The notes below the pieces were generated by a model. The model saw only the letters and a program-made list of their open reading frames with translations, searched no databases and was not told the DNA's origin. A stretch of 64,000 nucleotides of DNA from Modestobacter lapidis. Lineage in GTDB: Bacteria; Actinomycetota; Actinomycetes; Mycobacteriales; Geodermatophilaceae. The stretch spans positions 62,001 to 126,000 of the forward strand of contig JABAKE010000004.1 of the NCBI GenBank assembly GCA_019779905.1, given 5' to 3'. Made by a program: the position numbers and the translations under genes. Positions 16,603 through 32,094 of this stretch are shown here, piece after piece (the first letter of the stretch is position 1; every line of letters starts with the position of its first letter).

Positions 16603-18272
16603 CAGCCCACCGCCACGGGCGTCCCGGCGGTGCGGCGGGACAGCTGGACGTGGCCGGCGTCGTCGAACCGGACGTCCAGGTGCACCCGCCAGCCGTCCTC
16701 GGCGTCGGGATGGTCCTCCCGCCAGTGGCAGCCGCGGGTCTCCTCGCGCGCCGCGGCGGCCGCGGTGAGCGCGGTCGCCACGGTGAGCAGGTCGGTGGCC
16801 TCCCAGCTGTCCACCCCCGGCCGGACGTCGTCGCCGCGGGCGGCGAGCCCGGCCAGCCGGTCGGCGGCCTCGGCCAGCCCGGCCCCGCTGCGCAGCGCGC
16901 CGACCCGGCTGGACATCGTGGCGGTGAGCTCGGCGCGGACCGCGGGGTCGAGCAGGCCGCCGGGGACCGCCGGGGCCGGTTCGGCGGCGGCCGGGACCGG
17001 CAGGTCGCGGGCCAGCGCCGCGCCGATCCGGCCGGCGAACACCAGCCCCTCCAGCAGCGAGTTCGAGGCCAACCGGTTCGCGCCGTGCACCCCGGTGCAG
17101 GCGACCTCGCCGCAGGCGTACAGCCCGGCGACGGTGGTGCGGCCGGTGAGGTCGGTGGCCAGCCCACCGGAGGCGTAGTGGGCGGCGGGGGTGACCGGCA
17201 CCAGGTCGGTGGCGAGGTCGATGCCGACCTGCCGGCAGCTGGCGGCGATGGTCGGGAACCGCTCGGCCACCCCGGGCACGTCCCGGGCGTCGAGCCACAC
17301 GTGGTCGACGCCGTCCCGCAGTTGCACGCGGGTGATCGCCTTGGCCACGACGTCGCGGGGGGCGAGCTCGGCCAGCTCGTGCACCCCGGTCAGGAACCGC
17401 ACGCCGGCGCCGTCGCGGAGCACCGCGCCCTCGCCGCGCAGCGCCTCGGAGACCAGCGGCTGCTGCCCGCGGGCCCCGGGGCCGACGTGGAGCGCGGTCG
17501 GGTGGAACTGGACGAACTCCAGGTCGGTGGCGACCGCCCCGGCCCGCAGGCCCAGGGCCACGCCGTCGCCGGTGGAGACCGCCGGGTTCGTCGTCGCCGC
17601 GTACACCTGGCCCATCCCACCGGTGGCCAGCACGACCGCCCGGGCCCGGACGGCGCCCACGCCGTCGGCGGAGCCCTCCCCGAGCACGTGCAGGGTGACC
17701 CCGGCGGCGCGGCCGGTCGCATCGGTGAGCAGGTCGAGCACCATGGCGTGCTCGACCAGGGTGATGCCGGGGTCGGCCGCGACCGCCTCGGTCAGCGCCC
17801 GCTGCACCTCCACGCCGGTGGCGTCGCCGCCGGCGTGCACGATGCGGTCGGTGGAATGCCCGCCCTCGCGGGTGAGCAGCAGCCGGCCGGCGCCGTCGCG
17901 GTCGAAGGCGGCCCCCCAGCTGATCAGCTGGTGCCGCCGCTCGGGCCCCTCGGTGACCAGGGCGAGGACCGCCGCGCGGTCGCAGAGGCCGACACCGGCG
18001 ACCTCGGTGTCCCGGGCGTGCGCGGCGGGGGTGTCGTTCGCACCGAGCACCGCGGCGATGCCGCCCTGCGCCCACCGGGTCGAGCCGTCGTCCACCTGCA
18101 CCTTGGTGACGACGGCGACGGTGAGCCCGGCCGCCCGCGCGTGCAGCGCGACGCAGAGCCCGGCCACGCCGGAGCCCACCACGCAGACGTCGGCGGAGAG
18201 CTCCCAGCCGGGAGGCGCGGCCCGCAGCCGCACCGGCAGCCCGGTCGACCGGGCCGCCGTGCGGGTGGTCAC
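16599..18272 (-). CDS. nadB: L-aspartate oxidase
   Basis: FAD enzyme that oxidises aspartate to iminoaspartate for quinolinate synthesis. The 557-residue protein has the Rossmann motif [15 protein letters not shown], the substrate loop [49 protein letters not shown], and the C-terminal [33 protein letters not shown] typical of the fumarate reductase/aspartate oxidase family. GTG start overlaps the panD stop (GTGA). NadA, the partner quinolinate synthase, is not in the window. The stop overlaps the first GTG of the 74-bp tandem repeat. Confidence 0.96.
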
Positions 18273-18691
18273 CGGGGCGCGACCACGTCGCCGCGCAGCT
18301 GCCCGAGGACGCCGGGAGACGGCGCCGCGGGGTCGGCGCCCAGCTCGACGATGCGGTTGCCGCCGTCGACGTGCACGACCTTGGGGAGGTAGGACTTCGC
18401 CTCGGTCTCGTCCATCAGCCCGTAGCTGATCAGGATCACCAGGTCGCCGGGGTGCACCAGGTGCGCGGCCGCGCCGTTGATGCCGATCACCCCGCTGCCC
18501 CGCTCCCCGGGGATCACGTAGGTCTCCAGCCGGGCGCCGTTGGTGACGTCGACGATGGCGACCTGCTCACCGGGCAGCAGGTCCGCGGCGTCGAGCAGGT
18601 CCTCGTCGATGGTCACCGACCCGACGTAGTGCAGGTCGGCCTGGGTGACCGTCGCCCGGTGGATCTTGGACTTCAGCATGGTGCGCATCAT
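18269..18691 (-). CDS. panD: aspartate 1-decarboxylase proenzyme
   Basis: Pyruvoyl enzyme that makes beta-alanine for pantothenate. The 140-residue proenzyme is self-cleaved between Gly24 and Ser25 (YVGSVTID), the invariant site. It also has [26 protein letters not shown] and [14 protein letters not shown], matching the family. The first of two consecutive ATG codons overlaps the panC stop (ATGATG), and the stop overlaps the nadB GTG by four bases. Neighbours panC and coaX complete the path from beta-alanine and pantoate to phosphopantothenate. Confidence 0.97.
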
Positions 18692-19572
18692 CGGGGTCCT
18701 CCGGGCTTCGGGTCGTGCAGGGTCACGGCGAGGTTGTCGATCAGCCGGGTGCTGCCGGCGCGGGCGGCGACGAGCAGCCGGGCCGGTCCGGCGGCCGGGG
18801 CCGGCCCGAGGTCGGGGTCGGTGAGCTCGAGGTAGTCGGGCACCAGGCCGGGAACGCCGGCCAGCACCTGACCTGCGGCGTCGAGGACCGCAGCCGCGCC
18901 GCGGGGCCCGGCCGCCGCCCCGGCCCGCAGCGCGGCCGAGATCGCCGCGGCCGCCGATCGCTGCTCGGCGCTGAGGTAACGGTTGCGCGAGGACAGCGCC
19001 ATCCCGTCGTCCTCCCGGACGGTCGGGACGCCGGCCACCTCCACCCCCAGCGCCAGCTCGCGGGACATCGCCCGGATCAGCGTCAGCTGCTGGTAGTCCT
19101 TCTCCCCGAACACCGCGACGTCCGGCCGGATCAGGCCGAACAGCTTGGCCACGACCGTGAGGACGCCGGCGAAGTGACCGGGCCGCACCGCCCCCTCGAG
19201 CACCGCGCCGAGCGGACCGGGCTGGACGGTGACGCCGAGCGAGCCGGGCGGGTAGACGTCGTCGACGGCCGGATGGAAGACCAGGTCGGCGCCCTCCTCG
19301 GCGAGTGCGGCGAGATCGGCGTCCCAGGTGCGCGGATAGCGGTCGAAGTCCTCCCCCGGACCGAACTGGGTGGGGTTGACGAACACCGAGACGACCACGC
19401 TGCCGCCGCGCGCACGGGCGGCGCGCACGAGCGCCCGGTGCCCCTCGTGCAGGGCGCCCATGGTGGGAACCAGCACCACCGGGCCGGGCAGCTCGGCGCG
19501 CAACCGGGCCAGCTCGGCCGGAGTGCCGGCCACGGCGGGCCGCCGCAGGATGCCCGTCGTCGTCGGGTTCAC
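18688..19572 (-). CDS. panC: pantothenate synthetase
   Basis: Joins pantoate and beta-alanine with ATP to form pantothenate. The 294-residue protein has the HIGH-like motif [10 protein letters not shown] (near residue 37), [21 protein letters not shown], the FGEKDYQQL motif and the KMSKS-like region [16 protein letters not shown]. Its GTG start overlaps the stop of the DUF2520 gene and its stop overlaps panD, so translation of the three is coupled. Confidence 0.97.
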
Positions 19573-20555
19573 CGGGGCACGTCCGCGGCGGCCTGCAGCA
19601 GGTCCAGCAACGGCGACCCCTCGAGGGGCCGCAGCCGGCCGGCGGCCAGCGCGCGCTCGGTGGTGCGCTGGGCCATCGCCACGTAGGCCGGGACAGCGGC
19701 CGGTGCCCGTTCGGACAGCGTGTCCAGGTGGTCGCGGACGGTGCCGACGTCACCGCGGCTCACCGGCCCGGTCAGCGCCCGGTCACCCTGCCGCAGCCCG
19801 TTCTCCAGCGCTGCATTCAGCAGCGGGCCGAGCACCCGCCCGGGGGCGCCCACGCCCGCCGCGCGCAGCAGGTCGGCGGCCTCGGCGACCAGGGTGACCA
19901 GGTGGTTCGCGCCGGTGACCAGGGCCGCGTGGTAGAGCCGACGGTCGGCCTCGTCCACACAGAACGGCTCGCCGCCCATCTCGAGCACCAGGGCCTCGGC
20001 GACCACCCGGTGCTCCGGGCGGCTGGTCACGCCGAAGGGGGCGGCGGCCAGCCGGGCGACGTCGTCCGGAGCGCCGGTGAACGTCATCGCCGGGTGCAGT
20101 GCCAGACCCAGCACGCCCGCCCGCTCCGCGGGCGCGAGCACCGCCAGCCCGTGGGCGCCGGAGGTGTGGAACACCAGCTGACCGCGACGCCAGGTGCCGG
20201 TCTCGGCCAGGCCGGCGACCAGGCCGGGCAGGGTGTCGTCCGGAACCGCCAGCAACACCAGGTCGCTGGCCGCGACGACGTCGTCGGCAGGGAGCAGGGG
20301 AACGCCGGGCAGCAGCCGGGCGGCGCGCTCCGCGGAGGCGGCCGACAGGCCGGCCGCGGCGACCACGTCGTGCCCCGCGGCGGCGAGGGCGGCCCCCAGG
20401 ACGGCGCCGACCCGGCCGGCGCCGATCACCCCGACCCGGAGCCGGGCGGGGGCATCGGCGGCCGGGGGCAGCCCGGCGGCGGGCAACGCAGCAGGTGGGG
20501 TCGCGGCGGCAGGTGGGGTCGCACGCGGTGACGCGCGCAGCGGACCAGCAGACAT
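19569..20555 (-). CDS. Rossmann-fold NAD(P)-binding protein with DUF2520 domain (Rv3603c-like)
   Basis: About 328 residues starting at the ATG at 20555 with GAGAGG upstream. A 40-residue Ala/Pro-rich leader precedes an N-terminal Rossmann domain ([25 protein letters not shown], then [17 protein letters not shown]) and a helical C-terminal DUF2520 domain ([39 protein letters not shown]). The architecture is that of short-chain or ketopantoate-reductase-like dehydrogenases, and the conserved place directly upstream of panC suggests a part in pantothenate metabolism, possibly pantoate formation. That role is inference. Confidence 0.85.
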
Positions 20556-20844
20556 CCCGGTGCACCTCTCGTTCCAGTCCCTGGCGGGTACCGGACTCGG
20601 GTCGCGCCCACGTCGTCGTGGACCGCGGTCGAAGGCCGTGCGGTTCGTGCCGTGGCGTCCCGCCCGCTGCGACCACCCGGCGATCCGGGTGTGCCACGCA
20701 GGAGGCGCGCCACACGCGAGTCTGTAACCCGCCGCGGGCGGCCGCAATGCCCGGGGGTGTGGACTGGCTCACCGCCGGCGCAGCGGGGCGCGCCGGTTAC
20801 CTTGTGCCCGCCGGCACCGCGGCCGGCCGGTCGGGAGGAGCACG
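20556..20844. promoter_or_regulatory. divergent intergenic region between the DUF2520 gene and the SDR gene
   Basis: A 289-bp gap with no gene. It must hold promoters in both directions. On the plus strand TACCTT near 20799-20804 is a possible -10 for the SDR gene, about 40 bases from its GTG. No operator-like palindrome or riboswitch was recognised. Confidence 0.3.
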
Positions 20845-21597
20845 GTGGACACGTTCGAGGGACGGACCGCACTGGTCACCGGCGCGAGCCGGGGCATCGG
20901 GCTGGCCATCGCGTCCAGCCTGGTCCAGCGGGGCGCCCGGGTCGTGGTCACCGCCCGCAGGGCGGACGCCCTCGCCGAGGCCGTCGAGTCGCTCGGCGGG
21001 CCGGAGAAGGCCGTCGCCGTCGCCGGCAACGCCGCTGACCCCGAGCACCGCGCCGAGGCGGTGCGCACCGCCATCGGAACCTTCGGCAGCCTGGACGTGC
21101 TGGTCGGCAACGTGGGCATCAACCCGGTGTTCGGTCCGCTGATGGACACCCCGCTGGACGCCGTCCGCAAGATCCTGGACACCAACGTGGTCGCCAGCCT
21201 GGGGCTGGTCCAGGAGGCATGGCGGGCCTGGATGTCCGAGCACGGCGGGTCGGTGCTGATCGTCGCGTCCGTGGCGGGTCTGAAGTCGAGCGAGGGCATC
21301 GCCGCCTACGGCATCAGCAAGGCCGCGCTGATCAACCTCACCACCCAGCTCGCCGTCGAGCTCGGCCCCACGGTCCGGGTCAACGCCGTGGCCCCGGCCG
21401 TGGTGAAGACCCGGTTCGCCGAGGCGCTGTTCACCGGGCGCGAGGACCAGGTCTCGCGGCAGTACCCGGCCGGCCGGCTCGGCGTGCCCGAGGACATCGG
21501 CGAGGCGGCGGCCTACCTGCTCGGCGACGGCGCGGGCTGGGTCACCGGCCAGACGCTGACCCTCGACGGCGGCGCGCTGTCCCGCGGCCCGATCTAG
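20845..21597 (+). CDS. SDR-family oxidoreductase (FabG-like)
   Basis: Classical short-chain dehydrogenase/reductase of 250 residues. It has the cofactor motif TGASRGIG (residues 12-19), NVG in place of NNAG, the catalytic Ser in VASVAG (near 142), and the YxxxK pair Tyr155-Lys159 in AYGISKAA. The C-terminus WVTGQTLTLDGGALSRG is family-typical. GGGAGG precedes the GTG start. FabG-like enzymes act on 3-ketoacyl or other keto/hydroxy substrates with NADP(H); the substrate cannot be read from sequence. It lies on the plus strand inside an otherwise minus-strand core cluster and is absent from the equivalent mycobacterial order, so it is probably an insertion. Confidence 0.88.
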   Translation: MDTFEGRTALVTGASRGIGLAIASSLVQRGARVVVTARRADALAEAVESLGGPEKAVAVAGNAADPEHRAEAVRTAIGTFGSLDVLVGNVGINPVFGPLMDTPLDAVRKILDTNVVASLGLVQEAWRAWMSEHGGSVLIVASVAGLKSSEGIAAYGISKAALINLTTQLAVELGPTVRVNAVAPAVVKTRFAEALFTGREDQVSRQYPAGRLGVPEDIGEAAAYLLGDGAGWVTGQTLTLDGGALSRGPI

Positions 21598-21598
21598 C

Positions 21599-21657
21599 GG
21601 CCCCTCTGCAGGGACCCGCCCGAGCCTGCGAGGGGCGGGGGGCAGAGGAGTCCTTCT
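21599..21657 (-). repeat. stop-codon-proximal hairpin repeat, copy C (between SDR and DUF6779-like gene)
   Basis: In minus-strand direction: AGAAGGA, outer stem CTCCTCTGC with GCAGAGGGG (one G-U pair), inner stem of three to five pairs (CCC with GGG), loop TCGCAGGCTC. It begins one base after the SDR stop, in opposite sense to that gene, and lies 72 bp downstream of the minus-strand gene ending at 21730. It is the only copy not next to the stop of a gene in its own direction. Confidence 0.8.
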
Positions 21658-21688
21658 ACTCGTCCTTCCGCACGCCACGCTCCGCGCG

Positions 21689-21718
21689 CCGCGGGCCTTC
21701 GGGGACGAGGCCGCGGGG
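21689..21718 (-). terminator. possible terminator after the DUF6779-like gene
   Basis: An imperfect hairpin CCGCGGGCC with GGCCGCGG, loop about 12 nt, 12 bp beyond the stop of the minus-strand gene. No T-tract; weak. Confidence 0.35.
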
Positions 21719-21729
21719 GCGAAGGGTCT

Positions 21730-23073
21730 TCATCCCCGGCCGAGCACCCGCGCCAGGACGTCGTCCGGCGGCTGCGGGTCGTCCTCGTCCCGGTAGCGCC
21801 GCCGGCGCCGTCCGGGAGCCGGACGCACACCGCTCCCGGCGAGGATCTGCTCCAGCCTGGCCGGCCCGCCCGCCGGCGCGGCAGCGGAGGGCACCGGCGG
21901 GGCGGCCGGCACCTCGGCGGCCGGTGGTGGAGCCGGGGCGTCGCGGCCGCCGGCTCCTCCGTGCGCGGCGACCCGGGTCGAGCCGATCGGCAGCCGGTCG
22001 TCGTCCGGTTCGGCCGCCCGGCGGTGCCGGTGCGGCGCGGCGGCGTCGCCGGTGGCCGGTACCGGGTCCAGCCCGACCCGGTACCGGCCGCGCGGCGCCG
22101 GCGTCGGGCGCTCGGGCGACTCGGGCGACTCGGGCGACTCGGGCGACTCGGGCGACTCGGGCGGCTCGGGCGACTCGGGCGACTCCGGCGAACCGGGCGG
22201 CTCCGGCGGCTCGGGGCTCGACTCCTCCCGGGGCCTCCGCCGCGGGAGTTCCACGGGCAGCGCGGCCGACGGCTCCGCCGGCTGCGTCAGCTCGTCCAGG
22301 ACCGACCGGCCGGTTCCCGGGGCGGCGGTGACCGGCCCCCCGGCGGGGACGGCCGCGACCGGCGGGGTGGGCGTGGCAAGGCCCCGGCCACGGACCGGCT
22401 CCCGGCCCGCCGGCCACCGTTCAATCGTGGCGTGCTGCTCCCACGAGGCGCTGCGGAGCCCGTCGCCGGCGCCGTCCAGCGTGCGGCCGTCGTCACCGGG
22501 CCGCTCGGCCGGCAGCCGGACCGCCTGGGCCCGCATGACCATGCGCTCGATCAGCAGCTCACCGGACAGCTGCTCGGTCAGCTCGCCGCGCAGCCGGCCG
22601 AGGTCGGCGCGCAGCTCCCCGAGGGCCGCGAGGTCGTTGCGCAGCCCGGACAGGCCGGCGAGGTCGGCGCGCAGCGCGGCCAGCTCGCGGCGCATGCCGT
22701 CCTCGGCCTCGCGCCGCAGCCGCTTCTCGAGGTCCAGCTCGAAGACCTTGCGGGCGGCGACCTCCCGATCGAGCTCGCGGTCGTAGGCGTGCCGCAGCTC
22801 GGCTTCCCGGCTCTGCGCAGCGAGCTGGTCGGCCCGCCGCCCGCCGGCGAGGAAGGCCGCCACGAGGAAGGCCCAGCAGGTGGCCAGCAGTGCCACCCGC
22901 AGGTGGACGGCGTCGTCGGTGAAGAACACCGCCACGGTGCCGGCCAGCGCCAGCAGGAGCCCGGCGACCAGGCCGACGGTGCGGAGCGGGCCACGGCGGG
23001 CGGGCGGCTCGACGCGCCGGGCCGCGGCGCCGGTGAGGTGGTCGGGGGTGCTGTCGTCCCGACGACCTGCCAT
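21730..23073 (-). CDS. DUF6779-like two-TM coiled-coil membrane protein (Rv3604c-like)
   Basis: About 447 residues, function unknown. Near the N-terminus two transmembrane segments (VGLVAGLLLALAGTVAVFF and VALLATCWAFLVAAFLAGG) are followed by a charged helical, probably coiled-coil region (about residues 80-165, rich in REAELRHAYDRELD and LRADL heptads), then a disordered Pro/Ala/Arg-rich C-terminus of some 250 residues. That tail contains a 9-bp tandem repeat encoding PES units (22112-22210). Position and architecture match mycobacterial Rv3604c. The start at 23073 is chosen by homology of length; an upstream ATG at 23112 is open. Confidence 0.65.
   Translation of the reverse strand: MAGRRDDSTPDHLTGAAARRVEPPARRGPLRTVGLVAGLLLALAGTVAVFFTDDAVHLRVALLATCWAFLVAAFLAGGRRADQLAAQSREAELRHAYDRELDREVAARKVFELDLEKRLRREAEDGMRRELAALRADLAGLSGLRNDLAALGELRADLGRLRGELTEQLSGELLIERMVMRAQAVRLPAERPGDDGRTLDGAGDGLRSASWEQHATIERWPAGREPVRGRGLATPTPPVAAVPAGGPVTAAPGTGRSVLDELTQPAEPSAALPVELPRRRPREESSPEPPEPPGSPESPESPEPPESPESPESPESPESPERPTPAPRGRYRVGLDPVPATGDAAAPHRHRRAAEPDDDRLPIGSTRVAAHGGAGGRDAPAPPPAAEVPAAPPVPSAAAPAGGPARLEQILAGSGVRPAPGRRRRRYRDEDDPQPPDDVLARVLGRG
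22112..22210. repeat. 9-bp minisatellite inside the DUF6779-like gene
   Basis: About eleven near-perfect copies of a 9-bp unit (TCGGGCGAC and variants CGGGCGGCT, CCGGCGAAC) code for a run of Pro-Glu-Ser/Pro triplets. The 9-bp period keeps the frame, so copy number can change without breaking the protein. Confidence 0.8.
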
Positions 23074-23396
23074 GCCAGCAGGGTACGGGCGGCGGCTCCC
23101 GATGCCGGTCATCTCCGGGCCCGTGCGCGCCGGGATCTTCCGCTCGGCCGGTGTGCTCGGGGATCATCCGGGCCCGCACGGGGCGGTTCCGGCGCCGGAG
23201 CCATCCGATGGCGCACGACGGGATGTGTTTCGATGGCAGACCACATGCTCTCGATCAGCCCGGACACCACCGGCCGGATGTCCCCGGAACCGCGAGTCGA
23301 TCGAGGAGAGCCGGTGCCCACACCCTTCTCCGCAGGGGCAGCGGGCTCTCGGGCCGGCGCGAGGACCAGCGGCGCGACGGCCCAGGGAGGACCCCG
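23074..23396. promoter_or_regulatory. divergent regulatory region upstream of the OpuC-type operon
   Basis: A 323-bp gap with no convincing gene. It holds a locally less GC-rich stretch (23223-23255) with the spaced inverted repeat ATGTG ... CACAT, and farther down GGACA ... TGTCC (near 23263-23284) with 11-12 bases between arms. These could be operator sites for osmotic control of the transporter. The ATPase start is set by GGGAGG at 23385-23390. No known riboswitch recognised. Confidence 0.35.
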
Positions 23397-24530
23397 ATGA
23401 TCCGGTTCGACGCGGTGTCGAAGGAGTACCCCGGCGGAACCGTCGCGGTCGACGAGCTGAGCCTCACGGCCCCGTCGGGCACGATCACCGTGCTGGTCGG
23501 ACCGTCCGGCTGTGGCAAGACCACCAGCCTGCGGATGGTCAACCGGATGATCGAGCCGACGTCGGGCACGATCACGATCGACGACCGCGACATCACCTCC
23601 GTGTCCGCCACCGAGCTGCGTCGGGGCATCGGGTACGTGATCCAGCACGCCGGCCTGTTCCCGCACCGCACGGTCGTCGACAACGTGGCGACCGTCCCGA
23701 TGCTCACCGGCACCGGTCGGCGGCAGGCACGCAGCCGGGCGGTCGAGCTGCTGGAGCGGGTCGGACTGCCGGCAGCCTTCGCCGACCGGTACCCCGCCCA
23801 GCTGTCCGGCGGGCAGCAGCAGCGGGTGGGGGTGGCCCGGGCGCTGGCCGCCGACCCGCCGGTCATGCTGATGGACGAGCCCTTCAGCGCCGTCGACCCG
23901 GTGGTCCGCGACCAACTGCAGCAGGAGTTCCTGCGGCTGCAGCAGGAGCTGGGCAAGACCATCGTGTTCGTCACCCACGACATCGACGAGGCGATCCGGC
24001 TCGGCGACACCATCGCGGTGCTGGCCGTCGGCGGCCGGCTGGCCCAGGTCGCGACCCCCGCCGCCCTGCTGGCCACCCCCGCGGACCCCTTCGTGGCCGG
24101 TTTCGTCGGCCGCGACCGCGGTTACCGGGCCCTGGCCTTCATGTCCGCCGAGGTGGCCCTGGCAGCCGAGCCCGCCGTGGCCCTCGGCTCGCCCCTGGCC
24201 CGGGCGCGCGACGTCGCCGTCGACGACTGGGTACTCGTGGTCGACGAGAACGACCGGCCGCAGGGCTGGCTGCACCTCCCCGCCCATCCCGCGGGCGGCC
24301 CCGGGCCGGCACCCGGCGAGGTCGGCCCCGCGCTGCTCAACCTCGGCGGCACGCTGGCCCCGGTCGGCGGAACCCTGCGGGAGGCGCTGGACGCCGCCCT
24401 GTCCTCCCCGAGCGGACGGGGCATCGTCGTCGACGACGCCGGCCGGCTCGTCGGCTCGGTCAGCGCCGCGACCGTTCTCGACCACGTCCACGACACCGCC
24501 GCGGACACCCCCGCGAGGGGCGGGGCATGA
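23397..24530 (+). CDS. quaternary-amine (glycine betaine/carnitine/choline) ABC transporter ATPase, OpuCA/ProV type
   Basis: Energises uptake of compatible solutes. The 377-residue protein has Walker A GPSGCGKT (near residue 36), the Q-loop VIQHAGLFPHRTV, signature LSGGQQQRVGVARAL (near 136), Walker B VMLMDEPFSAVDP and the H-loop VTHDIDEAIRLGD. After residue about 240 there is a degenerate CBS-type pair (WVLVVDENDRPQGWL and GIVVDDAGRLVGSVSAATVL), which in OpuCA homologues senses ionic strength or cyclic di-AMP. GGGAGG lies six bases before the ATG. First gene of a four-gene operon; overlaps the next by ATGA. Confidence 0.93.
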   Translation: MIRFDAVSKEYPGGTVAVDELSLTAPSGTITVLVGPSGCGKTTSLRMVNRMIEPTSGTITIDDRDITSVSATELRRGIGYVIQHAGLFPHRTVVDNVATVPMLTGTGRRQARSRAVELLERVGLPAAFADRYPAQLSGGQQQRVGVARALAADPPVMLMDEPFSAVDPVVRDQLQQEFLRLQQELGKTIVFVTHDIDEAIRLGDTIAVLAVGGRLAQVATPAALLATPADPFVAGFVGRDRGYRALAFMSAEVALAAEPAVALGSPLARARDVAVDDWVLVVDENDRPQGWLHLPAHPAGGPGPAPGEVGPALLNLGGTLAPVGGTLREALDAALSSPSGRGIVVDDAGRLVGSVSAATVLDHVHDTAADTPARGGA

Positions 24531-25219
24531 CCTCGGCGGCCGGCTCGGCGCCCTGGGACCTGTTCGGCTACTTCGCCGACCACCGCGAACAGGTACTGGA
24601 GCTGCTCTGGTCGCACACCTGGCTCTCGGTCCTGCCGGTGGTCGTCGGGCTGCTGGTGGCGCTCCCGATCGGCTGGCTCGCCCGCCGGTACCGGTGGGCG
24701 TACCCGCCGATCGTGTCGGTGACCGGCCTGCTGTACACGATCCCGTCGCTGGCGCTCTTCGTGATCATGCCCACGCTGCTGGGCACCCAGATCCTCGACC
24801 CGCTCAACGTGGTCGCCGCGCTGACCGTCTACACCGTCGCGCTGCTGGTGCGGGTGGTCGCCGACGGCCTGGCCGCCGTTCCCGAGGACGTCCTGCAGGC
24901 GGCCACCGCGATGGGCCTCACCCGCCTCCAGTTGCTGCGGATGGTGCAGCTCCCGCTGGCCGTCCCGGTGATCGCCGCGGGCCTGCGGGTGGCCACCGTG
25001 GCCAACGTCAGCCTGGTCGCGATCGCGGCGACCATCGGGATCCCCCAGCTCGGGCAGCTGTTCATCACCGGGTTCCAGCTGTCGGTGAGCGGGCCCTACT
25101 ACCCGCCGATCGTGCTGGGCATCGTGCTCTGCGTCGCGCTGGCGCTGCTGCTCGACCGGTTGATCGTCCTGAGCGCCCGACTGCTCACCCCCTGGCAGCG
25201 GGTGGTGACTGCTCGATGA
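24527..25219 (+). CDS. quaternary-amine ABC transporter permease (OpuCB type)
   Basis: A 230-residue inner-membrane subunit of the BPD_transp_1 family with about five to six transmembrane segments. It has the EAA-loop region (VPEDVLQAATAMGLTRLQLLRMVQLPLAVPVIAAGLRVATV) that contacts the ATPase, and GLLYTIPSLALF, typical of OpuC/YehW-type permeases. The ATG overlaps the ATPase stop and the TGA overlaps the next permease start, so the three are coupled. Confidence 0.92.
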   Translation: MTSAAGSAPWDLFGYFADHREQVLELLWSHTWLSVLPVVVGLLVALPIGWLARRYRWAYPPIVSVTGLLYTIPSLALFVIMPTLLGTQILDPLNVVAALTVYTVALLVRVVADGLAAVPEDVLQAATAMGLTRLQLLRMVQLPLAVPVIAAGLRVATVANVSLVAIAATIGIPQLGQLFITGFQLSVSGPYYPPIVLGIVLCVALALLLDRLIVLSARLLTPWQRVVTAR

Positions 25220-26058
25220 ACGAGGTGCTCGTCTGGCTCAACGACCCGCAGAACTGGACCGGCACCCGGTCCACGCCCGGTATCGGCGACCAGGTCGCCG
25301 CTCACCTGGCGTACACCGCGGTCGCCCTGCTGATCGCCGGGGGAATCGCCTTTCCGCTGGGGCTCGTCCTCGGCCACACCGGCCGGGCGTCGTGGCTGGT
25401 CTCGGTGGCCAACGGGCTGCGGTCGCTGCCGACGGTCGGCCTGCTCATCCTGCTCTACGTCATGGTGTCGCCGCTGGTCAGCGGCCGTGGGGACGCCGTC
25501 TACCTCGTGCCGACCGAGATCGCCCTGGTCGTGCTGGCCCTGCCGGCGATCCTGGCCAACACCTACGCCGGCGTGCGGAACGTGTCGCCGGCCGTCCGCG
25601 ACGCGGCGTTCGGCATGGGGATGACCGGGCGGCAGGTGCTGTTCCGGGTGGAGCTGCCCAACGCGCTGCCGCTGGTGTTCTCCGGCGTCCGCAGCGCAGC
25701 ACTGCAGGTCATCGCCACCGCGACGATCGCTGCCTACGTCGGTCTCGACGGGCTGGGACGCTACGTCTACGACGGGCTGGCCAGCCGGCAGTTCGGCGAG
25801 ATGGCCGGTGGCGCGGTCCTGGTCGCCGTCCTGGCCCTGCTCGTCGACCTGCTGCTCGCGCTCGTCCAGCGGGTCACCGTCTCGCGGGGGGTGTCCGGCA
25901 GGTTCTCCCGGCGGGCCGCCGGAGGGGACGGCCGTACCGCGAGGATCACCGAGCTCGCCGCCGCCGATCCGGACGACCTGTCGCCGGCGGCGGGCGACCC
26001 GGCGGCAACGGACCCGGTGCCCGTTCCGGAAGGTTCCGGCGGGCGTTCCACGGGATGA
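25216..26058 (+). CDS. quaternary-amine ABC transporter permease (OpuCD type)
   Basis: Second permease, 280 residues, five to six transmembrane segments and an EAA loop (VSPAVRDAAFGMGMTGRQVLFRVELPNALPLVFSGVRSAALQV). It differs from the first permease in a longer periplasmic N-terminal stretch (LNDPQNWTGTRSTPGIGDQ) and a hydrophilic C-terminal tail of about 50 residues rich in Asp, Pro and Ala. Two different permeases are usual for OpuB/OpuC-type systems, which form heterodimeric pores. Overlaps the previous gene by ATGA. Confidence 0.92.
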   Translation: MNEVLVWLNDPQNWTGTRSTPGIGDQVAAHLAYTAVALLIAGGIAFPLGLVLGHTGRASWLVSVANGLRSLPTVGLLILLYVMVSPLVSGRGDAVYLVPTEIALVVLALPAILANTYAGVRNVSPAVRDAAFGMGMTGRQVLFRVELPNALPLVFSGVRSAALQVIATATIAAYVGLDGLGRYVYDGLASRQFGEMAGGAVLVAVLALLVDLLLALVQRVTVSRGVSGRFSRRAAGGDGRTARITELAAADPDDLSPAAGDPAATDPVPVPEGSGGRSTG

Positions 26059-26075
26059 CCCGTCCCTGTCTGTGC

Positions 26076-26097
26076 ACGGGCGGCGACCGCCGCCCGT
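26076..26097 (+). terminator. intra-operon stem-loop before the binding-protein gene
   Basis: A perfect 9-bp stem (ACGGGCGGC with GCCGCCCGT) with loop GACC in the 88-bp gap after the second permease. Such hairpins often protect or partly terminate transcripts so that the binding protein is made in a different amount from the membrane subunits. No T-tract. Confidence 0.55.
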
Positions 26098-26146
26098 TAC
26101 CCGGTGACCCGGCGCGAGCGCCGCGGCTGACCCCAGGAGAGAAGCA

Positions 26147-27106
26147 ATGAACCGCAGGATCGCCATGGCGCTGACCGGCGCGACAGTCCTGCTCACGGCG
26201 CTGACCGCGTGCGGCGAGTCGGGCAGCAGCAGCGCCGGTGGGAGCGAGACCGGGTCCGACGGGGGCGCGGAGACGATCGCCTCCGGCATGGTCCTCGGCG
26301 GACCCCCGGAGTTCGAGAACCGGCCCGACGGGATCCCCGGCCTGGAGGAGGTCTACGGCGTCACCTTCGGCGAGTTCCGCAGCCTCGACGCCGGCGGCCC
26401 GCTGACCATCAACGCCCTGAAGAACGGGCAGATCGACGCGGCCGACATCTTCACCACCGACCCGAACATCGCGGCCAACGACTGGGTCGTGCTCGAGGAC
26501 CCGGAGAACCTGTTCGCGGCGCAGAACGTGCTGCCGCTCATCAACACCGAGAAGGTCACCGACGGGGTCACGGCCGTGCTCGACGCGGTGTCCGCGGAGC
26601 TCACCACCGAGGACCTCCTCGCGCTCAACGAGCAGGTGATCATCGACCGGCAGGACCCGGCCGCGGTCGCCGGGCAGTGGCTGGCGGAGCAGGGGCTGGA
26701 CGCGACCGGCACCCAGGCCGCCGGGGTGGACCTCACCATCGGGTCGGCGAACTTCCCGGAGAACATCATCCTGGCCAACATCTACGCCCAGGCGCTGCAG
26801 GCCCAGGGTGCGACGGTCGACACCCAGCTGAACATCGGCAGCCGGGAGGTCTACATGCCCGGGCTGCAGGACGGTTCGATCGACCTGATCCCGGAGTACA
26901 GCGGCGTGCTCCTGGAGTACTTCGACCCCGAGGCGACCGCGGTCAGTTCCGAGGACGTCTACGCCGCGCTGCCCGAGGCCCTGCCGAGCGGCCTGACCGT
27001 CCTGGAGCAGTCGGCGGCCGAGGACAAGGACGCGATCGTGGTGACCCGGGAGACCGCGGAGGAGTACGGCCTGACCTCGATCGCCGACCTGGCCGAGCAG
27101 CCCTGA
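26147..27106 (+). CDS. circularly permuted OpuC/ProX-type substrate-binding lipoprotein
   Basis: Binding protein of the transporter, 319 residues. It has a lipobox signal peptide (LTALTAC, lipidated Cys22) and a Gly/Ser linker to about residue 45. Normal family members begin with IGSANFPEN ... and continue to SIADLA before GGPPEF ... RPDGIPGL ... LKNG ... LEDPENLFAAQNVLPL ... LDAVSAELT. Here the second half comes first (about residues 48-184) and the first half last (about 195-317, from DLTIGSANFPENIILANIYAQ to LTSIADLAEQP). Both halves look complete, so the fold is expected to be kept with new termini. AGGAGA precedes the ATG. It is the last gene of the operon. Confidence 0.93.
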   Translation: MNRRIAMALTGATVLLTALTACGESGSSSAGGSETGSDGGAETIASGMVLGGPPEFENRPDGIPGLEEVYGVTFGEFRSLDAGGPLTINALKNGQIDAADIFTTDPNIAANDWVVLEDPENLFAAQNVLPLINTEKVTDGVTAVLDAVSAELTTEDLLALNEQVIIDRQDPAAVAGQWLAEQGLDATGTQAAGVDLTIGSANFPENIILANIYAQALQAQGATVDTQLNIGSREVYMPGLQDGSIDLIPEYSGVLLEYFDPEATAVSSEDVYAALPEALPSGLTVLEQSAAEDKDAIVVTRETAEEYGLTSIADLAEQP

Positions 27107-27127
27107 CCCACCCCGGACGACGCCGGC

Positions 27128-27153
27128 GCCGGGTGGGCACCGCCCCACCCGGC
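27128..27153 (+). terminator. terminator after the binding-protein gene
   Basis: Perfect 10-bp stem GCCGGGTGGG with CCCACCCGGC and a 6-nt loop, 22 bp past the stop, between two convergent genes. A further GC-rich inverted repeat follows to 27170. Confidence 0.75.
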
Positions 27154-27192
27154 CCCGGGGCCCGGCGCCACGAATCCCCCGCGGAGGCGTGC

Positions 27193-27699
27193 TCAGGCGT
27201 GGGCGGCGCCGGCCGGTTCGTCCCGGTCCGGCGGGATCCGGCACTCGTGCTCGAGCCACAGCGCGGCGGCGACCAGGGCGAGTGACAGCAGCACGCCGAT
27301 GACGCCGGTGGTGGTGTCGCCGCCGGCCGCGGCGAGCCGGCCCAGCGCCGGAACGGTGTACAGCAGCAGCCCCGCCCAGCAGCCGGCGAACACCGCCCCC
27401 ACGTAGGCGCTGGCCTGGGCCAGCACGGCGAGCCGGGCGACCAGCAACGGCTCCACCGGACGGGCGGCGGCCGCGGGCGACGGGCGACCGGGCCGGGGAC
27501 GGCGGTCCCGCTCGGCGGCGAGCCGGGCCCGCAGGGTACGGGCACCCAGGGCCTCCGCGACGGCGAGCACACCCACCGGCACCGGCAGCCACCACTGCAG
27601 CGGTGGCAGGATCCCGTAGCTCGCGCGCACCACCAGCCACGAGCCGAGGGCCAGCCCGGCGACGACCACCAGGAGGTCGCGGCGGCGTACGGGTCTCAC
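27193..27699 (-). CDS. DUF3180 membrane protein (Rv3605c-like)
   Basis: A 168-residue integral membrane protein of unknown function with four predicted transmembrane segments arranged as two pairs: DLLVVVAGLALGSWLVV, LPVPVGVLAVAEALG, then after an Arg/Pro-rich loop AYVGAVFAGCWAGLLLYTV and GVIGVLLSLALVAAALWL, followed by LEHECRIPPD. It sits at the end of the folE-folP-folB-folK operon in the same place as mycobacterial Rv3605c. The GTG overlaps the folK stop by four bases. Confidence 0.85.
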   Translation of the reverse strand: MRPVRRRDLLVVVAGLALGSWLVVRASYGILPPLQWWLPVPVGVLAVAEALGARTLRARLAAERDRRPRPGRPSPAAAARPVEPLLVARLAVLAQASAYVGAVFAGCWAGLLLYTVPALGRLAAAGGDTTTGVIGVLLSLALVAAALWLEHECRIPPDRDEPAGAAHA

Positions 27700-28199
27700 G
27701 CCGGCTGTTCCCACCGCACGACGCCGGCGATGTCGTCGGCGGGGAGCGCCTGCACCAGGTCGGCCACCGGTCCGTACCCGGGCAGCTCCGCGCCGGGGTC
27801 GAGGGTCAGCCAGGGCACCAGCACGAATGCCCGCTCCGCGGCCCGCGGGTGCGGCAGGGTGAGCTCGGGGTCGGCGGAGAGCACCGGCGTGCCGTCGTCC
27901 CCGGTCACGGTGATGACGTCGACGTCGAGGGTCCGCGGGCCGAACCGGACGTCGCGGGTGCGGCCGGCGGCCTGCTCCAGCTCGTGGGCGAGGGCCAGCC
28001 AGCCGGCGGCGTCCCGGTCGCCCCGGACGACGGCGATCGCGTTCAGGTACGGCGGCTGCTCGACCGGACCCCAGGGCGGGGTCTCGTAGAGCATCGAGCG
28101 GGCCACCAGCCCGTGCTCCCCGAGCGCGACCAGGGCGCCGCGCACGGTGCCGGACCGGTCGCCCAGGTTGCCGCCGAGGGAGAGCACCGCGCGGGTCAC
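27696..28199 (-). CDS. folK: 2-amino-4-hydroxy-6-hydroxymethyldihydropteridine pyrophosphokinase
   Basis: Transfers pyrophosphate from ATP to hydroxymethyl-dihydropterin, the step before FolP. The 167-residue protein has SLGGNLGDR (residues 6-14), the pterin-site YETPPWG, PYLNAIAVV, the RFGPRTLDVDVI signature with the two catalytic Asp, and LTLPHPRAAERAFVLVPW. The GTG start overlaps the folB stop by four bases; longer open frames upstream are shadows of folB. Confidence 0.96.
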   Translation of the reverse strand: MTRAVLSLGGNLGDRSGTVRGALVALGEHGLVARSMLYETPPWGPVEQPPYLNAIAVVRGDRDAAGWLALAHELEQAAGRTRDVRFGPRTLDVDVITVTGDDGTPVLSADPELTLPHPRAAERAFVLVPWLTLDPGAELPGYGPVADLVQALPADDIAGVVRWEQPA

Positions 28200-28645
28200 C
28201 GGTGCTCCTCGCCGGCGCCCGGCTGCTGGCGCCGGATGGCGACCGTGACGTCGTCGGCGGGGACCCCCAGGTCGGCGTCGGGCTTGTGCACGGTGATCTC
28301 GACCGCCTGCACCGGCTGGTAGGCCAGGCACGCATCGGCCAGCCGCTGCGCGAGGGTCTCGATCAGGTCGACGGGCTCGCCGGTGAGCAGCGCGTGCAGC
28401 TGCTGGGAGAGCTCTGCGTAGTTGACCGTCAGGGTGAGGTCGTCGGCGGCGGCGGCCGGGGCGGTGTCGAGCTCGAGCACCGCGTCGACGCGGAAGGTCT
28501 GGCCGCGCTCGCGCTCGACGTCGTACACCCCGTGGTGGCCGTGGCCGGTGAGGCCGGAGACGGTGATCCGGTCGGGCGTGGCCCGGTCCAGCGGCTCCCC
28601 CCGAGCCTGCGAGGGGTGCGGGGGACGGGGTCCTTGCTCAGGCAC
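28196..28645 (-). CDS. folB: dihydroneopterin aldolase with repeat-derived N-terminal extension
   Basis: Cleaves dihydroneopterin to hydroxymethyl-dihydropterin. The catalytic core (DRITVSGLTGHGHHGVYDVERERGQTFRVD ... VNYAELSQQL ... LIETLAQRLADACL ... VHKPDADL) is complete and of normal length. No ATG, GTG or TTG lies near the usual start; the first usable codon is the GTG at 28645, overlapping the folP stop. The resulting protein of 149 residues has an extra N-terminus of about 25 residues ([20 protein letters not shown]) that is translated from hairpin repeat copy E. A CTG start nearer the core cannot be excluded. Confidence 0.9.
   Translation of the reverse strand: MPEQGPRPPHPSQARGEPLDRATPDRITVSGLTGHGHHGVYDVERERGQTFRVDAVLELDTAPAAAADDLTLTVNYAELSQQLHALLTGEPVDLIETLAQRLADACLAYQPVQAVEITVHKPDADLGVPADDVTVAIRRQQPGAGEEHR
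28592..28637 (-). repeat. stop-codon-proximal hairpin repeat, copy E (folP/folB junction)
   Basis: A shortened copy directly after the folP stop. It keeps AAGGAC, an inner stem CCCC with GGGG and the loop TCGCAGGCTC, but has lost the distal outer-stem arm. It lies inside the folB reading frame and encodes the start of FolB. Confidence 0.8.
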
Positions 28646-29522
28646 GGAGCCCACTGTGCCCGACGGGCGCCCCACCGCGTGCAGCGCGCACCGCGGCGAC
28701 GGTGCGCACGGCGTCGGCGGACGCGCCCGCGTCGTGCACCCGCACGCCCCAGGCGCCGGCCCCCGCAGCCAGCACGGTGCTGGCCAGGGTGGCGGCGTCC
28801 CGCCCCTCGGCGGGGCGGACGGCGCCCTCGGCGTCGGCCAGCAGCCGGCCGAGGAAGGTCTTGCGGGAGGCGCCCACCAGCACCGGCAGGCCCAGGCCGA
28901 CCAGCCGGTCCAGCCCGGCGAGCAGGGCCCAGTTGTGCTCCGCGCGTTTGGCGAAGCCGAGCCCCGGGTCGAGCACCAGTTGCTCGGGCGCGACTCCTGC
29001 GGCCACCACGTCCTCGACCCGCGCGGTCAGCTCGGCGGAGACCTCGGTGACCACGTCGCCGTACCGCGCCGCGGCGTACATCTCGCGGCTATGCCCCCGC
29101 CAGTGCATCAGCACCCACGGAACGCCGGTGTCGGCCACCAACCGGGCCATCCCGGCGTCGGCGAGCCCGCCGCTGACGTCGTTGACCAGTTCAGCGCCGG
29201 CCGCCAGCGCGGCCGCGGCGACCTCGGCCCGGGTGGTGTCCACGCTGATCCGCACCCCCGCGGCGACGAGCTCGGCGACCACCGGGATCACCCGGCGGCA
29301 CTCCTCGGCGGCGTCCACCCGATCGGCGCCGGGACGGGTGGACTCCCCGCCGACGTCGACGTAGTCGGCCCCGGCGGCGTGCATCGCCAGCCCGTGGGCC
29401 ACCGCCGAGGCGGTGTCGGCGAAGCAACCGCCGTCGGAGAAGGAGTCGGGCGTGACGTTCAGGACACCCATCACCACGCAGCGCCCCGGCCGGATCAGCT
29501 CGGGCGCCGTCCGGCTGCTCAC
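28638..29522 (-). CDS. folP: dihydropteroate synthase
   Basis: Condenses hydroxymethyl-dihydropterin pyrophosphate with para-aminobenzoate; the sulfonamide target. The 294-residue TIM-barrel protein has [15 protein letters not shown] (near residue 17), [54 protein letters not shown] and the C-terminal VRVHD. GTG start overlaps folE by four bases. The stop overlaps the folB start through hairpin repeat copy E. Confidence 0.96.
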
Positions 29523-30117
29523 CTGCCCAGGACCAGGCTCATCGCCTCGGCGCGGGTGGCCGCGTTCTCCCGGAAGATCCCGCGCACGGCCGAGGTGACC
29601 GTCCGGGAACCGGGCTTGCGGATGCCGCGCATCGCCATGCACAGGTGCTCGGCCTCGATGACGACGAGAACCCCCCGCGGCTTGAGCCCCTCCACCATCG
29701 CGTCGGCGATCTGCCGGGTCATCCGTTCCTGGACCTGCGGGCGGCGGGCGTAGAGGTCGACCAGCCGGGCCAGCTTCGACAGCCCGGTGACCCGGCCGTC
29801 CTCCCCCGGGATGTACCCGAGGTGGGCGACTCCGTGGAAGGGCACCAGGTGGTGCTCGCAGGTCGAGTACATCGGGATGTCCCTGACCAGCACCAGCTCG
29901 TCGTGGTCCTCCTCGAAGGTGGTGGCGAGCACCGCGAGGGGGTCGACGTGCAGCCCACCGAACGTCTCGGCGTAGGCCCGGGCCACCCGGGCCGGGGTGT
30001 CCTGCAGCCCGGGCCGGTCGGGGTCTTCCCCCACCGCGATCAGCAGCTCGCGGATCGCGGCCTCGGCCCGGTCCCGGTCGATCGGGGAGACGACCGGGAC
30101 AGCGCCGTCCGTGCTGG

Positions 30118-30121
<4 letters not shown>
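29519..30121 (-). CDS. folE: GTP cyclohydrolase I
   Basis: Opens GTP to dihydroneopterin triphosphate, the first folate step. The 200-residue enzyme has the zinc-binding CEHH ([13 protein letters not shown], near residue 88) and the second Cys in [10 protein letters not shown], plus [20 protein letters not shown] and [11 protein letters not shown]. The GTG overlaps the ftsH stop by four bases. FolE, FolP, FolB and FolK are encoded in order after ftsH, as in mycobacteria, and give nearly the whole dihydropteroate pathway. Confidence 0.97.

Positions 30122-32094
<1,973 letters not shown>

Follow-up and report, generated by a model that had tools for sequence, protein, structure and literature searches.

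A permuted substrate-binding lipoprotein of Modestobacter lapidis and the apparently repeated circular permutation of its family among actinobacterial relatives

The stretch of DNA analysed here (the window) comprises 64,000 nucleotides of Modestobacter lapidis (assembly GCA_019779905.1, contig JABAKE010000004.1, positions 62,001 to 126,000 of the forward strand). It carries an operon with the gene order ATPase, permease, permease, substrate-binding protein (SBP), the last gene of which is a 319-amino-acid open reading frame (ORF) at 26147-27106 (+) with an ATG start codon. The encoded SBP, P0001, has the two halves of its chain in swapped order. Canonical relatives run A-B1-B2, A being the first half and B the second, whereas P0001 runs B1-B2-A, an order called type I below. 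The features are as follows, with the evidence in brackets; AfProX denotes A. fulgidus ProX.

26147..27106, + strand: P0001, permuted substrate-binding lipoprotein, type I, block order B1-B2-A, 319 amino acids (ORF translation, Pfam, phmmer, profile mapping)
26135..26140, + strand: AGGAGA, likely ribosome-binding site of P0001 (read from the sequence)
26147..26212, + strand: signal peptide and lipobox-like LTAC (residues 19-22), lipidated Cys22 predicted (sequence)
26213..26278, + strand: Ser/Gly-rich anchor linker, residues 23-44 (pN comparison)
26279..26698, + strand: block B, residues 45-184, equivalent to the canonical second half, AfProX 135-273 (phmmer, profile)
26699..26728, + strand: linker tying the former C and N termini, residues 185-194 (phmmer, profile)
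26729..27097, + strand: block A, residues 195-317, equivalent to the canonical first half, AfProX 7-133 (phmmer, profile)
23397..24530, + strand: ATP-binding cassette (ABC) ATPase of the P0001 operon (Pfam-type domain match to ABC_tran; CBS match below its cut-off)
24527..25219, + strand: permease 1 of the operon (domain match to BPD_transp_1)
25216..26058, + strand: permease 2 of the operon (domain match to BPD_transp_1)

When P0001 was compared with PDB sequences using phmmer (E<=10, 27 distinct matches), residues 195-317 aligned with AfProX (1sw1) 7-133 and residues 45-184 with 135-273, i.e. the chain order of AfProX is reversed. The Pfam OpuAC family PF04069 matched P0001 with 180.9 bits (gathering score 21.2, E 4.6e-53) and aligned in two stretches, the better of which was residues 49-181, corresponding to profile positions 116-257. 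The OsmF equivalog NF049931 scored 80.9 bits, below the NCBI cut-off of 400. Sixty-seven ORFs of canonical-order relatives, after removal of duplicates, gave a profile of 269 positions, and on it the two pieces of P0001 span 127-268 and 5-127, filling 264 of the 269 positions. The halves thus occupy different parts of the profile and are not a single lobe repeated, and hardly any of the canonical chain has been lost. A repeated-lobe protein, which a sequence-only reading of this DNA had named as one outcome that would overturn it, was ruled out on the same mapping. That reading had placed the second-half block (about residues 48-184) before the first-half block (about 195-317) and held that joining them restores a normal sequence; both statements are borne out, the block limits being correct to within a few residues. 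The data support a circular permutation of an OsmF/OpuC/AfProX-type binding protein, to which P0001 is related by descent while departing from the canonical A-B chain order. The permuted order is common to close homologues: among the best 120 of 7883 matches, 118 of 119 align over 85-100% of the query in a single local alignment, and the remaining one, P0106, over 78%.

The gene looks functional, judging from purifying selection, a high-scoring structural model and the operon context. The ratio of nonsynonymous to synonymous substitution rates (dN/dS), measured against five Modestobacter orthologues, is 0.26-0.32, and the anchor linker evolves faster than the whole gene (nonsynonymous divergence, pN, 0.14-0.18 vs. 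0.06-0.07). An AlphaFold2 model reached a predicted local distance difference test score (pLDDT) of 88.9, with residues 1-39 below 50; a single-sequence model (pLDDT 37.8) was discarded. The earlier claim of a functional gene with its own lipobox agrees with these values, with the operon position and with the lipobox-like LTAC at residues 19-22.

An assembly error, a pseudogene or a decayed duplicate could also produce an aberrant chain order, and the window genome is a draft of 383 contigs. Nevertheless, eight genomes of the genus, that of the window among them, have the same order without internal stops, other genera have it as well, the dN/dS speaks against a pseudogene, and the window's contig is without a second PF04069 gene, making this explanation exceedingly improbable. 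Elsewhere in the genome there are two full-length canonical-order PF04069 genes, with open frames of 314 and 364 amino acids, and a third, weak match on contig C90 (E 2.5e-4). When P0001 was compared by tblastn with the two canonical genes, one gave a single match at 34%, restricted to the second half, and the other none. Both are distant, and neither is therefore a recent parent of P0001; the sequence-only reading had asked whether the gene might be the decayed duplicate of a canonical-order copy, and this does not hold.

The P0001 model has the chain topology of Bacillus subtilis OpuAC, a glycine/proline betaine-binding protein (2B4L), on which it superposes over its whole length at 14-15% identity. 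Circular permutation among betaine-binding proteins was already known (PMC2395249); the domain dislocation of OpuAC that the sequence-only reading had mentioned is prior art, and the predicted topology of P0001 is the same. It is conceivable that the B-A order was simply inherited from the OpuAC lineage and that nothing was permuted here, but we regard this as very improbable. By sequence OpuAC (2B4L), with only 15% identity, appears to belong to another lineage. The best PDB sequence relatives (AfProX, Lmo1422 and EgtUC) align in swapped order, and no OpuAC-named entry is among the 27 sequences. Block by block, canonical SBPs of Nakamurella (74% and 61% identity in the two halves) and Kineosporia (55-71%) are close, and actinobacterial trees, built without OpuAC sequences, place the window clade amid canonical genes and canonical operons. 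The order of P0001 would rather have arisen within a canonical-order family.

Relatives were sampled from 296 genomes of the phylum, 394 of the class, 112 of the family and 27 loci from contigs of named genomes. Four orders were found: canonical A-B1-B2, type I (B1-B2-A, as in the window), type II (B2-A-B1) and type III, cut inside B1. The cut sites lie at profile positions ~127 (I), ~192 (II) and ~157-164 (III). The fetched loci yielded 195 non-identical ORFs, a set enriched for permutants by its manner of collection, with 127 canonical and 68 permuted; all permuted ORFs are cut at 126-129, 157-164 or 187-196, except L128, which is cut by a contig end. A doubled window protein was also used as a probe of 396 phylum genomes, the start of a match revealing the cut. 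Among 150 matches listed, 135 were canonical (one cut short), 12 were type I, one was type II and two had the type III cut. The sequence-only reading had proposed a search of related genomes for the same order and for a canonical parent. The same order and close canonical relatives were indeed found, and its picture of one swap has to be widened by two further cut sites and repeated origin.

Type III was seen in genome G194 and again in G782; the closest database protein (99%) comes from a Nitriliruptor metagenome-assembled genome (MAG). G861 and G867, which belong to a remote part of the family, have the same cut. Angustibacter luteus and Motilibacter deserti are among the named sources of type II matches. 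Recurrent cysteines lie near both new termini of type II proteins (e.g. L120 1666-2664, -), namely in CxP before B2, at the end of A and in ECPxRPxC in B1, and disulphides between them might hold the cut site together. One type II relative, P0163, is labelled as a Spirochaetaceae MAG in NCBI, a label that is probably wrong. The inspected type I operons all have the order ATPase, permease, permease, SBP in one direction. At the type II and G861/G867 loci checked, the ATPase gene is divergent from those of the permeases and SBP, and only permeases were seen at the short loci of G194 and G782.

For phylogenetic analysis SBP sequences were rotated to canonical order, thinned by identity and dropped when fewer than 225 columns were filled; the truncated L128 was counted as type I, and neither OpuAC sequences nor non-actinobacterial proteins of the F-III subcluster were included. 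A 77-row tree, which excludes four long or odd rows (L026_2048, L129, L002, L023_588), requires three changes for type I (5-95% range 3-3 in 200 bootstrap trees), and forcing type I into one clade costs 182 log units (approximately unbiased (AU) test, p 9e-67). Each half alone also gives three changes, with a single clade rejected by the A half at p 2e-6. An 84-row tree gives four, separating clades Ia, Ib, Ic and Id. Clade Ia (100/99) holds the window together with Streptacidiphilus, Jatrophihabitantaceae, Allobranchiibius and others. With these 84 rows AU tests reject the joining of all type I (p 1e-49), of Id, Ib and Ic (p 3e-6) and of Ib with Ic (p 0.006), as well as all type III as one clade (p 8e-5). 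Type II is a single clade (100/100), and type III needs three changes, two of them forced by well-supported branches. Since one clade is not rejected for the Nitriliruptor type III pair (p 0.515), the pair is counted once and type III as two events. A tree of the ATPase and permeases only, which is blind to SBP order and for which 41 of 43 loci were kept (the Ib loci L166 and L167 are absent), has three type I changes, two of them forced; a single type I clade is rejected (dlnL 577, p 1.6e-5).

Taken together, the trees point to about seven separate permutations, four of type I, one of type II and two of type III. Five of these appear firm (Ia, the Ib/Ic group, II and III twice), with thinner evidence for the Ib/Ic split and for Id. 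Several observations weigh against the count. With the B half alone the rejection of a single type I origin is marginal (p 0.049). The split of Ib from Ic depends on the AU p of 0.006 and on a 91/86 branch of the operon tree with a single Ib row, and Id is one genome, G805. The Nitriliruptor pair itself splits in the free tree, and many genomes outside the window's class are fragmented. The nearest canonical kin of Ia also differ, being genomes G482 and G296 in the SBP tree (90/91) and Kineosporia in the operon tree (99/93); by either tree, the neighbours of the window clade are canonical. A single ancient type I permutation, with canonical order restored several times, might be suggested by the nearly identical cut (profile 126-129) in all type I genes. 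We consider this improbable: a single type I clade is rejected both by the rotated SBP sequences and by the operon genes alone, reversion would be needed in several canonical clades, and the solved homologues are canonical.

For P0001, permutation would have begun, in an ancestor within the window's class, with a canonical-order gene much like those that Kineosporia, Nakamurella, G482 and G296 have today. After tandem duplication of this gene, copy 1 would have been fused in frame to copy 2, the stop codon, spacer and second signal peptide being lost; then the first half of copy 1 would be dropped and copy 2 truncated. The fold and cleft would be rebuilt from the same parts, capturing and delivering the same ligand as in canonical relatives. 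What would differ is a lipid anchor on lobe II, and in lobe I the tying of the former termini by a linker of ~10 residues.

Traces of such a route are clearest in type III. The G194 protein is 83% identical to canonical L141 (from G795, same family code) over 168 residues covering A and early B1, and 76% over 114 residues of late B1 and B2; other canonical genomes of the G194/G795 family reach 65% to 81% over the first part. The type III joining segment (SGDELSGAE, GDGSLDGAE) aligns with the canonical residues between lipobox and block A (GGESLDGAE). Such a resemblance is what would be left behind if copy 1 had been joined to copy 2 downstream of the second signal peptide, and we take it as the imprint of duplication, fusion and truncation. 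At several loci SBP genes lie in tandem, with canonical order at L138, type II order at L100-L102, L104 and L109, and type I order at L042 6001-7856, where Allobranchiibius has two such genes. Leftover gene pieces beside type III genes were not detected by tblastn with a loose cut-off (best E beyond the gene 0.56). P[VIYF]A is present at the canonical A/B1 junction in 40 of 127 canonical ORFs, and type II proteins have CxP[VIE] before B2 in 37 of 38 cases and P[VI]A[GD] in 24 of 38. The likeness of P[VIYF]A to CxP[VIE] is suggestive of a duplication remnant. Telling against the route is that type III alone shows its footprint directly, the linkers of the window clade being too diverged to compare; for the window gene itself we infer it. 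On balance, we are confident that P0001 is a functional, anchored SBP of an OsmF/OpuC/AfProX-kind importer whose gene was most probably permuted by duplication, fusion and truncation, in one of about seven such events.

Within the genus, 23 genomes (including the window's own) comprise 8 with type I, 14 with rows of type II pattern and 1 with neither, and none of the 23 has both types (E<=1e-20). Type II was confirmed in three fetched genomes (G747, G753, G768), where it occupies the same chromosomal place as type I in the window. The flanks, corresponding to window 16788-21595 and 27228-31402 or parts of these and including an FtsH neighbour, match at ~80-90%. Window 21595-27228, compared with L179, L180 and L181, shows type I and type II operons at the same site in different genomes. 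The two operons thus behave as alternative cassettes at one locus. Beside the window operon, an ORF at 21730-23112 (-) contains a 9-bp tandem repeat, TCGGGCGAC, in 12.6 copies at 22104-22215, and its translation shows Ser-Pro-Glu repeats.

Pocket positions were chosen by the roles that we take the AfProX ligand residues to have, and were tabulated for 81 rows, Nitriliruptor type III being represented by a single one. At these positions the window clade has A201, Y251, D293, D295, F56, R59, F102 and Q126. AfProX Tyr63 and Arg149 have identical counterparts in Tyr251 and Arg59, Tyr190 is replaced by Phe102, Lys13 by Ala201, and the cage residues Tyr111 and Tyr214 by Asp295 and Gln126. The aromatic cage for quaternary ammonium (Y251, D295, F102, Q126 in P0001), a form of which is described for EgtUC in PMC9732360, is therefore incomplete, and near canonical relatives likewise lack it. 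Most nearby canonical rows match the window-clade residues, with Asp and Gln at the equivalents of 295 and 126 in 13 of 13. In clade Ic all four rows have Asn and Glu there, and so have the two canonical neighbours of this clade. The Nitriliruptor-type III row has Tyr at both and Lys at the equivalent of 201, and by eye canonical L141 carries the same motifs. Pocket chemistry in these sequences thus tracks ancestry, not chain order, and permutation has left it without visible change. Because Asp295 and Gln126 replace two cage tyrosines, a quaternary ammonium compound is an unlikely ligand of P0001; our guess would be a zwitterion, with Arg59 and Asp295 holding it.

Lobe crossings were placed by homology with EgtUC N339, Y341 and Y443 (PMC9732360) near the equivalents of AfProX 109-111 and 214, i.e. 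profile positions 105 and 210. All three cut sites fall between these, in lobe II, and each permutation would therefore take the lipid anchor off lobe I and place it on lobe II. A functional effect of this move is a hypothesis, against which it can be said that canonical relatives look like lipoproteins too. The chances seem evenly balanced that the lobe II cuts are instead a neutral by-product of break-tolerant loops, with tandem SBP duplicates as material. Such pairs are present in canonical, type I and type II order, and the cuts of the set examined are confined to three sites, but a neutral by-product alone leaves the absence of lobe I cuts unexplained. Under a uniform null, which ignores loop constraints, seven cuts within 105-210 of 269 positions have p ~0.0015, and five ~0.01. 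A bolder, tentative proposal, which we favour less, is that one SBP family was permuted some seven or more times at only three sites, all in lobe II, by selection for the anchor shift, with types I and II as interchangeable operon cassettes at one Modestobacter locus. Type I would then re-invent the OpuAC topology, itself perhaps of the same cause.

Among solved sequences AfProX, Lmo1422 and EgtUC are closest to P0001; they have canonical order, and their halves are swapped in P0001. EgtUC and AfProX are assigned to subcluster F-III, and OpuAC-type SBPs are credited with a Trp-based betaine site, in PMC9732360. P0001 shares with F-III the PF04069 match, nesting among canonical actinobacterial members and an operon with ATPase and two permeases. 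The Nakamurella and Kineosporia SBPs (L043, L044) have the same operon order as P0001, 55-74% block identity and, as a group, most pocket residues, but differ in the order A-B1-B2 and an anchor on lobe I. A permuted SBP structure has also been solved, that of the Treponema lipoprotein TpMglB-2 (Tp0684, 'type Ic / cluster Bc'), a natural permutant which binds glucose and changes shape; in PMC4990184, membrane anchoring is raised by its authors as a possible reason for the topology. As described there, however, TpMglB-2 has an unrelated cluster B sugar-binding fold, with one topology change and poor similarity of the permuted portions. P0001 does not have this fold, given its Pfam OpuAC match and whole-length superposition on OpuAC. 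Among open-licence PMC papers, judged mostly from their listings, no report was found of permuted OsmF/OpuC-type proteins or of any SBP family permuted more than once, and the sole 'permut' in the EgtU paper refers to an engineered green fluorescent protein (GFP).

As a rule, a natural circular permutation is an old, one-time event, and its parent and route can no longer be traced. Here, canonical and permuted forms stand side by side (closest pair 83%/76%), with repeated events at the same sites. Such close pairs make it possible to test the route through duplication, fusion and truncation, the preference for certain sites and the effect on function, and they bear on the differences in chain order that set OpuAC and other binding proteins apart from their relatives.
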